Source: an uncultured bacterium
GTDB taxonomy: Bacteria > Verrucomicrobiota > Kiritimatiellia > PWTM01
Assembly: GCA_938005705.1 (NCBI GenBank)
Contig: CALLML010000004.1
Span: forward strand, 1-35,952
Length of the DNA: 35,952 bases
Direction: 5' to 3'
Part shown: in pieces, positions 7,373-33,724 of the stretch
Numbering within the stretch: the stretch's first letter is position 1
Layout: each line of letters opens with the position of its first letter
The notes under the pieces: generated by a model
Seen by the model: only the letters and a program-made list of their open reading frames with translations
Databases searched by the model: none
Told to the model about the DNA's origin: nothing
Made by a program: the position numbers and the translations under genes

Positions 7373-7422
7373 TTTCCAAGGCTTGGAAAATTCAGGGCCA
7401 CGGTCTTCCAAGGTTTGGAAAA
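7373..7422. repeat. Paired palindrome repeat, copy 1
   Basis: Two short palindromes lie side by side. Unit A, 7373-7389, is TTTCCAAG, one base, then CTTGGAAA. Unit B, 7406-7420, has TTCCAA and TTGGAA arms around three bases. The TTCCAAG cores start at 7374 and 7406, exactly 32 bases apart. It lies ten bases beyond the mlaD stop and upstream of recN. The same arrangement recurs at 23381-23429 and, in damaged form, at 31838-31880. Confidence 0.8.
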
Positions 7423-12138: not shown

Positions 12139-12600
12139 GCTGGCGCCTTTGTGATTACCTACCGCATTCAGCAGCGGCGGTAAAGCATGGAGATGCGGAC
12201 GAAGCCACTCGCGCAGTTATTGTCATAATTTTTGTGTATGAGGGTATGAGACGAGTTCGGGTTCGTACGGATTTTGGAAATGTCGGATCTATTCGGAGAG
12301 GCGGCCCTGGCAGCGGCCGTACTTGAGCGGCGATTTCGGTGAGTATGGGGACGGGCGGAACCCGTCTCTCCAAAATTCACGAACGCGGTCGAGCGCCCTT
12401 CCCCACGCGTTGCATGGGCCAGCGCAGTTCCACCCGCGCCGTTTCGAGATGCGAAGCGCTGCGAAACCAGCGGCACCCTGCGGAAATTTGTCGGCCGAAT
12501 ATGGAGGAGTAGCCGGATGAAAGCTTTCGCCGGTCCCCCGAATTCCCCTTATGGAGAACGCCGTCCGGTGATCTCACTTTTTCCGAAGTATGAATACATC
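12139..12600. other. Intergenic region with a strong hairpin and no convincing gene
   Basis: This stretch lies between the 3' end of hypF and the start of the six-gene mla operon, both on the minus strand, so the operon promoter should be here. A compact hairpin stands out: GGGGACGGG at 12347-12355 pairs, with two G-T pairs, with CCCGTCTCT at 12361-12369 around a five-base loop. No run of T follows either side, so a simple terminator is not supported. The open frames here are short and lack a ribosome binding site. Confidence 0.45.
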
Positions 12601-23380: not shown

Positions 23381-23429
23381 TTTCCAAGGCCTGGAAAAAC
23401 AAGGGCATCGGTCTTCCAAGGCTTGGAAA
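23381..23429. repeat. Paired palindrome repeat, copy 2
   Basis: Unit A, 23381-23397, is TTTCCAAGGCCTGGAAA. Unit B, 23414-23428, is TTCCAAG, one base, CTTGGAA. The TTCCAAG cores begin at 23382 and 23414, 32 bases apart as in copy 1, and the linker ends in the same CGGTC. It lies between two convergent gene ends (deoxyribosyltransferase-like and prmC), a position expected for a two-way terminator or a 3'-end processing signal. Confidence 0.8.
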
Positions 23430-31837: not shown

Positions 31838-31880
31838 TTTCCAAGACTTGGAAGACTTTGCGGCCATTTTTTCCAAGCCC
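31838..31880. repeat. Paired palindrome repeat, copy 3 (interrupted)
   Basis: Read on the minus strand, unit B is intact (TTCCAAG, one base, CTTGGAA at 31839-31853) with the same GTC before it, and unit A keeps only its right arm (TTTTCCAAGCCC on the plus strand, 31869-31880). The two TTCCAAG cores start at 31839 and 31871, again 32 bases apart. The missing left arm is replaced by the end of the IS30 remnant. Confidence 0.65.
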
Positions 31881-31886
31881 ATGAAT

Positions 31887-32390
31887 TCAATCTCCAAGTG
31901 CAAAAAGTTCATCTCTCAGGGCTTCTTCCAGCGTTCGATAGCTGAAACACTTTTGGGGGCGTTGGTTCCATAAGCGAACGACGGCTTCCACTGCCGAAGA
32001 TAGGGCTCATAGCTCACCCCACGCTTCGCCGACTCCAGAATAAACCGATAGATCGTCTCGTGACTCACCTGCCTCCGCTGGTCACCCGGTTCCTGCCGAC
32101 CCCGCCCCGCAATCTGCTCGGGCGACCAGTACAACCCCAACTTTTCATCGATATAGGCCCGCAATGGCACGTAATCCATTTTCCGCGCCCGGCGAGACCT
32201 TCGCCGCCGCCGCCGGAGCGCCTGCCGCTGTGCCTCGGCCGCCCGATATCCACCCCGACTCCCATTCCATTTCAGTTCCCGGCTGATGCTCGAGGCACTC
32301 CGCTGAAGCCACCGGGCGATCCCCCGGAGTCTCCCGCCGTTCGCCTGCTCTATCGTGATGACATCTCGCTCTTCCATGCGAATATGCCAT
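31887..32390 (-). pseudogene. IS30-family transposase, internally deleted
   Basis: The N-terminal part is recognisable: MAYSH, a small deletion with frameshift, then MEERDVI, LRGIARWLQRSASSISREL (helix-turn-helix), GYRAAEAQRQA, YWSPEQIAGR and VSHETIYRFI. After YLRQWK the sequence jumps in another frame to AVVRLWNQRPQKCFSYRTLEEA and ends at a stop at 31887-31889; that is the usual IS30 C-terminus (NxRPRKxxxYRTPxE). The catalytic DDE core between the two is gone (about 150-200 residues, judging from normal 320-380 residue members). AAGGAG precedes the old start. The element can no longer move on its own. Confidence 0.85.
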
Positions 32391-32410
32391 AGCCCAAGGA
32401 TTACTCCTTT

Positions 32411-33724
32411 CTAGTTGCACCGCACCTTCAATAGTATCAAGCCGGACCACCGTTGGGATTCCTTTTCAAGCACGTTATTCACAGGCGGCGCGGGCGGCGA
32501 GAATGGGCCCCTCAGCTCGTCGCAGACGCCCGCGCCGCCTGTGAATAACGTGCGGTCTATTGCACTTGATATTAGAAACCGCGGGCTTGGAAAATCCGCG
32601 GGGCGATAGGAGCTCTTTGCCCTCTCGCCTCCAGCGCCGTGCACCGCACAGCGAACGGCGCGCTTACACGAGGCCGTATGGACTTCGTTCGCTGTCCCGG
32701 GCGAAAGAACTGTAGTTGGGAGCGGGGTGTACGGCCTTTGCTCCCCCCGTGCGGGGTCAAGGCGCGGCACCCTTGAGCGACAAAAATATTGAAAAGGGTT
32801 GAAATAGGTCGAAAAGGGCCGTTCGAGTTCGGCGGCGTCTCGGGCAGCGGCAGGGTCTTCCATGCGTGCGCGCAGATCGCCGATGCGTTCGATCCTGGTC
32901 TGGATGCGTTCGAGTTCGACGCCGAGCAGCCGGGCGCGCGCGGCGGCGTCGGGCGCGGCGGCGAGAGCGGCATCGAAGCGGGCGGCGCCGACGCGCCGCT
33001 CGATATTGGATAACGCGGACTCCACGGCCTCTTCGTTGGCTTTGCGGATTTCGGCCGCGCGCGTGGCGGCTTCCCGCTGGGCGAGCGCGGATTCGTCCAC
33101 ACGAGCGACGCGCATCCGCGCGGTGCGCAGGGCGGATTCCTGGGCTTCCATGGCGCCGCGCTCAAGGTCGGAATAGCGGCTCTTGCCGCGCTCGCGCTGG
33201 AGCTTGGCGATTTCTTCCTCGATCGTCTTGATCAGTTCGGCCTTATCCGCGACGGAACCCAGCCCGGCCATCTGTTCGGCGATGGCCTTGTTCTGGGCCT
33301 CGAACTGCTCCGTGATGTCTTCCCAGGCCATTATGGAGGCCTCGAGGCGGGCGGTCTGGGCGTCAATGAGGCCTTTGACCACGAGGCCGGCGCCGACGCC
33401 GAATCCGGCGGCGCCGACGACGCCGCGGACGGAGGCGCCCTTGGCGAGTTCGGCCTTGAGCGTGGAGGCGGCGCGCTGGCCGAGCGACATGCCCGCCCGG
33501 TTGCCGGCCTCGGCGAGGCGGAAGGAAACCATTTCGGCGGTGTAACGGACGGACGTCATCTGCCCGGCCATATCGGCGGTCGAGCGGCCGGTGAGAACAC
33601 CGCGTCCGAGGGCCAGCGTGCCCAGGGCCGCGGCGCCGGCGACCCATTGCGCGAAGCGGATCTGGACGACCGCGGCCACGCTCACGGCGAGGGCGTTCAT
33701 GGCCGTGCTCGAACGCGCGATCAT
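32411..33724 (-). CDS. Prophage tail tape-measure-like protein, second part, 3' end replaced
   Basis: The product has 437 residues. It opens with a hydrophobic, Ala- and Gly-rich region (AVSVAAVVQIRFAQWVAGAAALG, VRGVVGAAGFGVGAGLVVKGL), followed by a long charged helical part with coiled-coil character (KAELIKTIEEEIAKLQRER, EESALRTARMR-like repeats). From about residue 315 (beyond AELERPFSTYF) the reading passes into the hairpin-rich stretch and the inverted repeat, which gives an unlikely Pro- and Arg-rich tail, so the original C-terminus has been lost. The start ATG overlaps the TGA of the preceding tape-measure part (33721-33724). In phages these Ala-rich, helical proteins set tail length; the coupling suggests two adjacent subunits or one split gene. 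Confidence 0.55.
   Translation of the reverse strand: MIARSSTAMNALAVSVAAVVQIRFAQWVAGAAALGTLALGRGVLTGRSTADMAGQMTSVRYTAEMVSFRLAEAGNRAGMSLGQRAASTLKAELAKGASVRGVVGAAGFGVGAGLVVKGLIDAQTARLEASIMAWEDITEQFEAQNKAIAEQMAGLGSVADKAELIKTIEEEIAKLQRERGKSRYSDLERGAMEAQESALRTARMRVARVDESALAQREAATRAAEIRKANEEAVESALSNIERRVGAARFDAALAAAPDAAARARLLGVELERIQTRIERIGDLRARMEDPAAARDAAELERPFSTYFNPFQYFCRSRVPRLDPARGEQRPYTPLPTTVLSPGTANEVHTASCKRAVRCAVHGAGGERAKSSYRPADFPSPRFLISSAIDRTLFTGGAGVCDELRGPFSPPAPPVNNVLEKESQRWSGLILLKVRCN
32470..32553. repeat. Perfect 27-bp inverted repeat with DnaA-box-like cores
   Basis: The arms 32470-32496 and 32527-32553 are perfectly complementary over 27 bases around a 30-base loop. Each arm holds TTATTCACA, at 32475-32483 on the plus strand and at 32540-32548 on the minus strand, matching the DnaA-box pattern TTATNCACA. 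The rest of each arm is GGCGGCGCGGGCG-like. A stem this long is stronger than a normal terminator. It may be a miniature transposable element or a hairpin of mobile origin. Confidence 0.8.
32595..32785. other. Hairpin-rich non-coding stretch
   Basis: The sequence contains several inverted repeats: ACAGCGAAC (32648-32656) with GTTCGCTGT (32687-32695), and a GGAGC/GCTCC pair around GGGGTGTACGGCCTTT at about 32719-32745. Open frames crossing it have basic, chance-like composition. It may be the end of a REP-like or palindromic repeat element between the IS30 segment and the prophage. Confidence 0.35.

Follow-up and report, generated by a model that had tools for sequence, protein, structure and literature searches.

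The hairpin analyzed here, which lies in a 35,952-nucleotide stretch of bacterial DNA (the window), is one copy of a family of hairpins with a conserved tip that occur beside transposases and in single-stranded DNA phages. Family members combine a freely varying, strongly paired stem with the tip GAGAATGGG-(4–12 nt)-CTCGTCGGAG and are concentrated in one phylum; that the family and its structure are both real can be stated with high confidence. With regard to function the leading reading is a tentative one, namely that the hairpin is a candidate phylum-specific site for initiation on single-stranded DNA.

The window hairpin and its host element

The two arms, identified by inverted-repeat search and by comparison of copies, lie on the plus strand at positions 32470–32496 (arm A) and 32527–32553 (arm B, the perfect complement of arm A); they are complementary at 27 of 27 positions and enclose a loop region of 30 nt (32497–32526, plus strand, from the inverted-repeat search). 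The window contains six inverted repeats of 18 nt or more whose arms lie within 200 nt of each other; this is the sole perfect one, the rest being matched at 70–79%. The single-stranded DNA fold of the hairpin region has a calculated energy of −54.2 kcal/mol, compared with −29.0 ± 3.3 for shuffled sequences (z −7.6), which confirms the perfect 27-bp hairpin with a 30-base loop described in an earlier note on this DNA. The same note was correct in assigning a DnaA-box-like sequence to each arm in opposite orientation: TTATTCACA is found at 32475–32483 (+) in arm A, with its mirror copy at 32540–32548 (−) in arm B. The exact TTATNCACA occurs twice in the 35,952 bases (0.13 expected), both times in the hairpin arms. 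The conserved tip, GAGAATGGG-CCCCTCAG-CTCGTCGCAG, identified by pattern search and by comparison with the family, occupies 32499–32525 on the plus strand, which is the motif strand; it has the family form GAGAATGGG...CTCGTCGNAG closed by a paired stem, here of 27 bp.

The hairpin is part of an internally deleted IS30-family element (31881–32580) and not a free-standing unit, being situated inside the element 6 nt from its right inverted repeat and 92 nt upstream of the transposase start. The element has terminal inverted repeats and several copies, as expected of an IS30-family member. Its left inverted repeat, ATGAATTCAATCTCCAAGTGCAA (31881–31903, plus strand), is shared with small changes by the copies on contigs C71 and C103 of the same genome, and the inner part of this repeat, CAAGTGCAA, recurs inverted at the right end of the element. 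The right inverted repeat is at 32560–32580 (minus strand); the right end was set at 32580 because the copies on C73 and C105 diverge just beyond it, after ...GATATTAGAAACC, and contig C71 stops there. An apparent IS30 insertion site flanks the element as a left half-palindrome, TTTTCCAAGCCC (31869–31880), mirrored by the right half of the target palindrome, GGGCTTGGAAAA (32583–32594), with a similar flank in several, though not all, copies. Between the repeats a 153-residue open reading frame on the minus strand (31916–32377) is a transposase remnant that matches NF033563 (transpos_IS30; E 1.5e-18, 67.5 bits against a cut-off of 80, the protein being internally deleted) and HTH_38 (E 3.2e-6, 27.2 bits, cut-off 27); the IS30 relative with the highest best-segment identity is in L081 (a Kiritimatiellia record; 61% over residues 90–152), which points tentatively to Verrucomicrobiota or a neighbouring phylum for the window.

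The earlier placement of the hairpin between an IS30 remnant and a prophage must accordingly be revised, as remnant and hairpin belong to one element; on the side of the presumed prophage Pfam gave no family for the two open reading frames tested to the right of the hairpin, and PHROGs, with four compared, gave a single weak match (E 0.0024), to a family of unknown function. The suggestion that the hairpin might be a miniature mobile element survives in part, in that it is hosted by an IS30-family element that has lost internal sequence and whose ends have relatives elsewhere in the genome, but the hairpin itself is not a free unit. Separately, the palindrome TTCCAAG-N-CTTGGAA occurs three times in the window (7374–7388, 23414–23428 and 31839–31853; 0 expected by chance); it may be an IS30 target, a half-palindrome being found at the flanks of several IS30 copies.

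Copies in the window genome

The genome to which the window belongs (G000; 2.76 Mb in 149 contigs) has other contigs that share the left or the right end of the IS30-family element. A search with the 141-base hairpin region gave 11 matches in this genome. One is the window itself and another is the window matched in reverse through its palindrome, which leaves nine elsewhere (C105, C73, C71, C103, C64 twice, C135, C99 and C70); the copies on C71, C73 and C105 have identical sequence at contig ends and may represent fewer than three genomic copies. The earlier note had proposed a search for further copies, and would have given up its reading for a single copy lacking a conserved box; the copies exist, but the box is not generally conserved. 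In the other copies the exact box is absent from arm A, and TTATCCACA is found in arm B of two of the nine (C103 and the second C64 copy).

The five other copies with two arms form only 15 to 20 Watson-Crick pairs of 27, and comparison with them at four sites bears on how the perfect arms arose. Position 32473 is an unpaired A in all five and C in the window; the base present at 32487 in the window is missing from four of the five; position 32482, C in the window, is T in three, G in one and C in one; and at 32479, where all five have C paired to G, the window has a T-A pair, with both arms changed. These four sites, though short of proof, suggest that the perfect arms of the window copy were produced by template-switch correction of a quasi-palindrome, an event that would also account for the exact DnaA boxes in both arms. 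Across the IS30 copies the best-conserved part of the hairpin is the loop, GAGAATGGGCCCCTCAGCTCGTCGCAG. Covariation among the six IS30 copies of this genome is weak, as 58 of 500 shuffles reach the observed count of pairs changed on both sides.

Two further features of these contigs were observed. A repeat family represented by L017 4368–4508 (C71) and window positions 12216–12320 has matches on eight other contigs including that of the window; it is nested in the IS30 copy of C71 and adjoins the hairpin loop in C99. In addition, L018 (contig C73 of G000) and L023 (contig C138 of G005), assigned to different genera, have 6.4 kb in common at 99.8% identity, reflecting either a recent transfer or a misbinned contig.

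A hairpin family with a conserved tip

A covariance model built from the six copies of the window genome only was searched in 288 genomes of the class and gave matches in 30, G000 included. When 11 of the 29 loci L105–L133 were taken as alignment input, the ten matches listed had unrelated stems and the same tip, with GAGAAUGGG in 10 of 10 and CUCGUCGG in 9 of 10; because the model came from window-genome copies alone, this recurrence is an independent sign of tip conservation. The exact pattern GAGAATGGG-N-CTCGTCGGAG is found in 37 of the 288 class genomes, and in the window's phylum hairpins of this pattern occur in 68 of 387 (both counts include G000, and the two samples overlap), while a control with the reversed pattern gave 0 in every genome listed in either search. 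In other samples the exact pattern occurs in 3 of 294 genomes of the Planctomycetota (the phylum of L065), in 0 of 398 genomes of the phylum of L032 (Bradyrhizobiaceae) and in 0 of 30 genomes of a mixed set. The window tip has CGCAG where the family majority has CGGAG, and a variant tip, CTCGCCGGAG, occurs in one viral contig. Many contig ends in G095, G159, G338 and G395 have the motif no more than ~100 bases away; elements bearing it seem to break assemblies, and copy numbers are possibly underestimated.

For structural comparison 83 distinct hairpins were aligned without gaps around the tip, yielding an outer stem of 12 pairs together with an inner helix. This set leaves out the viral loci L166, L167, L168 and L174 (which have no good stem, L168 also duplicating L166), copies with fewer than 30 nt on a side, and the window-genome copies with inexact tips (C103, C64 twice, C135 and C99), and keeps the weak-stemmed L170 and L173 by choice; its tip columns are constant by construction, having been fixed by the search pattern. 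The stem columns covary across GC, CG, UA and AU; at the pair 22–57, for example, these number 23, 21, 17 and 9, respectively, and 77 of 83 hairpins are paired. The pair adjacent to the core, which joins the two end bases of the variable loop, is C-G in 48, T-A in 14, A-T in 4 and T.G in 2 (68 of 83). The median stem score is 16.8, compared with 4.4 after exchange of partners; the hairpins are not independent of each other, and p-values serve as a guide only. The motif strand gives the more stable fold in 76 of 83 hairpins as RNA and in 73 of 83 as DNA. The exact TTATNCACA is found in the tip or no more than 35 nt away from it in 5 of the 83, the window hairpin included, and a flank within one mismatch of TTATCCACA in 12 (both flanks in 9), compared with 0.41 and 0 for shuffled flanks.

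Several known identities were considered for this family and rejected. A DnaA titration site is a cluster of conserved DnaA boxes; the window has a single inverted pair, and the titration idea of the earlier note is not upheld, the exact box being near the tip in 5 of 83 hairpins and in arm B of two of the nine other G000 matches. An intrinsic terminator would combine a GC-rich stem with a T-tract, which follows 7 of 72 hairpins on the motif strand and 2 of 72 on the other (background 0.079). In REP/BIME elements the tag GTAG or CGTC should be unpaired at one end of the stem; CGTC is here inside the tip. Integron attC sites have conserved outer boxes and a variable terminal structure, a pattern that is reversed in the present hairpins with their constant tip and variable stem. 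Nor is the hairpin a general IS30 feature: upstream of the transposase in the 52 testable of 55 IS30 loci from other genomes (L036, L078 and L082 having too little upstream sequence) the best inverted repeat scores at most 15.

Rfam 15 gave no match at the gathering score for the window stretch and 15 related loci, and below that score only microRNA models and one sRNA model fell on the hairpin. Among plasmid and phage records no DNA similarity was found for the IS30 element, and the tip and the L170 region gave short partial matches, none over more than 80% of the query. In literature searches, where subscription journals are thinly covered, no description of the tip was among the matches listed; those listed for tip strings were unrelated, those for insertion-sequence hairpins, priming sites and nick sites contained nothing on the tip, and a search on the gokushovirus origin gave no match.

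Carriers: insertion sequences and microviruses

Thirty open reading frames near the motif were compared with Pfam; 20 matched transposase families, nine no family, and one an AraC regulator. The assignments comprise IS256 (L109, L119, L121 and L333), IS3-type (rve or HTH_Tnp_1; L110, L126, L154, L163 and L327), IS21 (IstB; L111 and L114), IS481-type (L113) and IS110 (L155, L331, L342, L357, L361 and a neighbour of L121), together with an rve match under its cut-off (L120) and a DDE_Tnp_1 match (L146); the names IS3-type and IS481-type are our reading of the domains. Recognized carriers overall are IS3-, IS21-, IS256-, IS481-, IS110- and IS30-type elements and five single-stranded DNA microviruses. 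The planctomycete copy L343 adjoins the AraC-type gene. In three genomes the repeated unit around the motif has the length of an element, extending from −86 to about +1355 in G082 (7 of 8 comparisons), from −142 to +1236 in G145 (3 of 7) and from −160 to about +1400 in G018 (3 of 4); in G119, G159 and G095 only 114 to 147 bases are common, with contig ends cutting those of G159 and G095.

The motif has a preferred orientation relative to the transposase gene. A transposase could be named for 34 of 91 distinct contexts, the other 57 including the five microviruses and some window-genome copies, and 28 of the 34 have the gene 3' of the motif strand. In 18 of these 28 the motif lies in antisense orientation at the gene's 3' end (IS3, IS21, IS256, IS481, rve and the untyped L107 kind), in eight it is sense at the 5' end (seven IS110 and one IS256, L333), and in two it is antisense to a distant IS110 gene. 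The remaining six contexts (L120, L125, L146, L165, L299 and L342) scored otherwise, L299 through a neighbouring gene, its own IS256 gene being 3' of the motif strand. The IS30 element of the window, which was outside the query proteins, is a further exception to the orientation rule, as its motif strand points outward.

The pattern was also found in 11 viral contigs, five of which, 3.4–4.7 kb long, have genes for a Phage_F capsid and for a Rep of the microvirus type. In all five the motif is on the gene strand, which is the virion strand; in four it is upstream of rep, and in L172 it lies between the capsid gene and a gene read as pilot protein. Two of the five, L170 and L173, have weak stems. 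In the stretches fetched from six other microviruses of the phage collection no tip was found within four substitutions; five of these six have before rep a hairpin with a CTTGA loop, which resembles the plus-strand nick site of phiX174. A separate hairpin of this kind, a candidate plus-strand nick site, is present on the gene strand in three of the five microviruses with the motif (L164 2832–2864, L169 2176–2216 and L173 4678–4715), and in these three the motif is therefore a second hairpin; in L170 and L172 the CTTGA-loop hairpin is instead on the opposite strand. A looser pattern matched at least 120 stretches of viral contigs; of 85 matches in loci L164–L252, five have a stem score of at least 7, and four of those were already known.

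Proposed function and alternative explanations

The replication-site reading leads because single-stranded DNA phages carry the same tip as the insertion sequences. According to PMC7780238, IS3, IS256 and IS30 elements transpose by a copy-out/paste-in route in which replication turns a figure-eight into a circle. What such insertion sequences would have in common with the virion strand of a microvirus is single-stranded DNA that has to become double-stranded, and this favours an initiation site. In the proposed sequence of events mobile DNA would become single-stranded, either as entering microvirus DNA or as the strand displaced in the conversion of a copy-out insertion sequence to a circle; the hairpin would then fold on the single strand and present its tip as the recognized part; and a phylum-specific host priming factor (a primase, a helicase loader or a DnaA-like protein) would read it and start the complementary strand. 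Covarying stems, strand preference (G.T over A.C, and the more stable fold of the motif strand), mobile carriers and concentration in one phylum all support an initiation site. Placement supports it as well: all five microviruses have the motif on the gene strand, three of them with a separate nick-like hairpin, and 28 of the 34 assignable contexts have the transposase gene 3' of the motif strand. Known DnaA-box hairpins on single-stranded DNA load DnaB and then primase (PMC6127211), and since such hairpins recruit priming, the near boxes in 12 of 83 family hairpins likewise favour this reading. DnaA is not the general reader, however, because 71 of 83 hairpins are without even a one-mismatch DnaA box.

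Other observations do not fit an initiation site easily. These include the outward-pointing motif strand of the window IS30 element, the IS110 carriers, the position of L343 beside an AraC-type gene, the weak stems of L170 and L173, the opposite-strand CTTGA-loop hairpins of L170 and L172, the weak covariation among the six IS30 copies of the window genome, and the 57 of 91 contexts that are unassigned. IS110 is, to our knowledge, not a copy-out element. IS2 uses one fixed end, and if IS3-like carriers did the same, the other strand would be exposed, which argues against the initiation-site reading; in ISCth4 either end can serve as donor (PMC7780238).

The main rival, which we consider rather unlikely, is a cis-acting RNA: the hairpin would form in transcripts entering the element or in phage mRNA upstream of rep, and its tip would bind a host factor or affect RNA polymerase or a ribonuclease, so as to pause, process or insulate transcription. 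Among mismatches in the 83 stems G.T exceeds A.C by 145 to 43 (87 to 30 when 27 hairpins having a GTTRTY arm are left out), and the consensus inner helix contains U.G and G.U, albeit in columns that the search pattern set in advance. Such an excess of G.T suits RNA no less than it suits DNA, a point against the initiation-site reading. The motif strand is moreover mRNA-sense in 5 of 5 microviruses and in seven IS110 contexts upstream of the transposase, and it runs toward the transposase gene in 28 of 34 contexts. However, 18 contexts have it in antisense orientation, at the 3' end of the gene or past it, a location from which transcripts are not expected, and there is neither a T-tract nor a fitting Rfam match. 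The antisense placement in IS3, IS21 and IS256 favours DNA, and the G.T preference slightly favours RNA.

It is improbable that the hairpin is instead a DNA-protein site without a role in priming, such as a subterminal cruciform or hairpin bound by a nucleoid or transposition factor. Its location would suit such a site, as the tip is 86–160 nt from one element end in G082, G145 and G018, near where transposase sites lie, and the window hairpin is 6 nt from the right repeat; but the same tip is common to unrelated transposase families and to phages in which no transposase was seen, so that it is not simply a transposase site, and the strand preference of the hairpins is not accounted for. Less probable again is a selfish hitchhiker, in which the tip or the whole hairpin would be a tiny mobile unit landing in palindromes near insertion-sequence ends: a constant tip on unrelated stems, and its occurrence at different ends of IS256-type genes (upstream in L333; downstream in L109, L119 and L121), would follow from this, whereas covarying stems and a mostly fixed strand orientation would not. 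That the feature is an ordinary decayed end, where a dead IS30 element happens to contain a palindrome or terminator and, by accident, a DnaA box, is hardly credible given the tip in 68 of 387 genomes with a control of 0 and the covariation, even though the window element is internally deleted and the best inverted repeat upstream of the transposase in 52 other IS30 loci scores at most 15, compared with 27 here.

Returning to the initiation-site reading, its implication if true is that replicating transposons bring along a strand-start signal of their own, as single-stranded DNA phages do. How the displaced strand becomes double-stranded, a gap in the copy-out model, would thereby be explained. 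It is plausible, if short of probable, that unrelated transposons and single-stranded DNA phages converged on, or exchanged, one tip that captures an essential host machine, such that the tip acts as a password for mobile DNA in the phylum, by which unassigned microviruses can be traced to their hosts. Even with another function, a constant tip with covarying stems, present both beside six kinds of transposase and in microviruses, suggests that one host target is involved, which could be found by pull-down, and the tip would serve as a sequence tag linking orphan microviruses to hosts.

Comparison with known systems

The host element resembles IS30-family insertion sequences in its transposase remnant and inverted repeats and differs from them in the hairpin, as none comparable lies upstream of the transposase in the 52 testable loci elsewhere. 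REP elements of the GTAG and CGTC families are likewise short repeated palindromes, and CGTC occurs in the present tip; according to PMC3733652, however, a REP element carries its tag unpaired at one end of the stem, which measures 5–13 bp (GTAG) or 8–9 bp (CGTC), and the CGTC families are described without association to transposase genes, a description that sets them apart from a hairpin with CGTC inside its tip.

The A-site of the ABC primosome (PMC6127211) is closer, being a hairpin on one strand with a DnaA box in its stem and DnaA-dependent loading of DnaB on SSB-coated single-stranded DNA; DnaA or near-DnaA boxes are present in both arms of the window copy and in some family stems, and the sub-group with an inverted pair of near boxes at the stem base would resemble such an A-site. 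In the present family, unlike the A-site, the tip is conserved, 71 of 83 hairpins are without a near box, and the role in priming is a proposed one. Hairpin origins are also known as the complementary-strand origins of Microviridae and the sso of rolling-circle plasmids, and the present hairpin is like these in being on the gene strand of single-stranded DNA phages, three of the five having their presumed nick site elsewhere; its tip sequence matches no complementary-strand origin or sso known to us. The present hairpin differs in occurring also in insertion sequences, where we know of no complementary-strand origin of this type, and if it is an initiation site it would be a known kind of site in an unexpected place.
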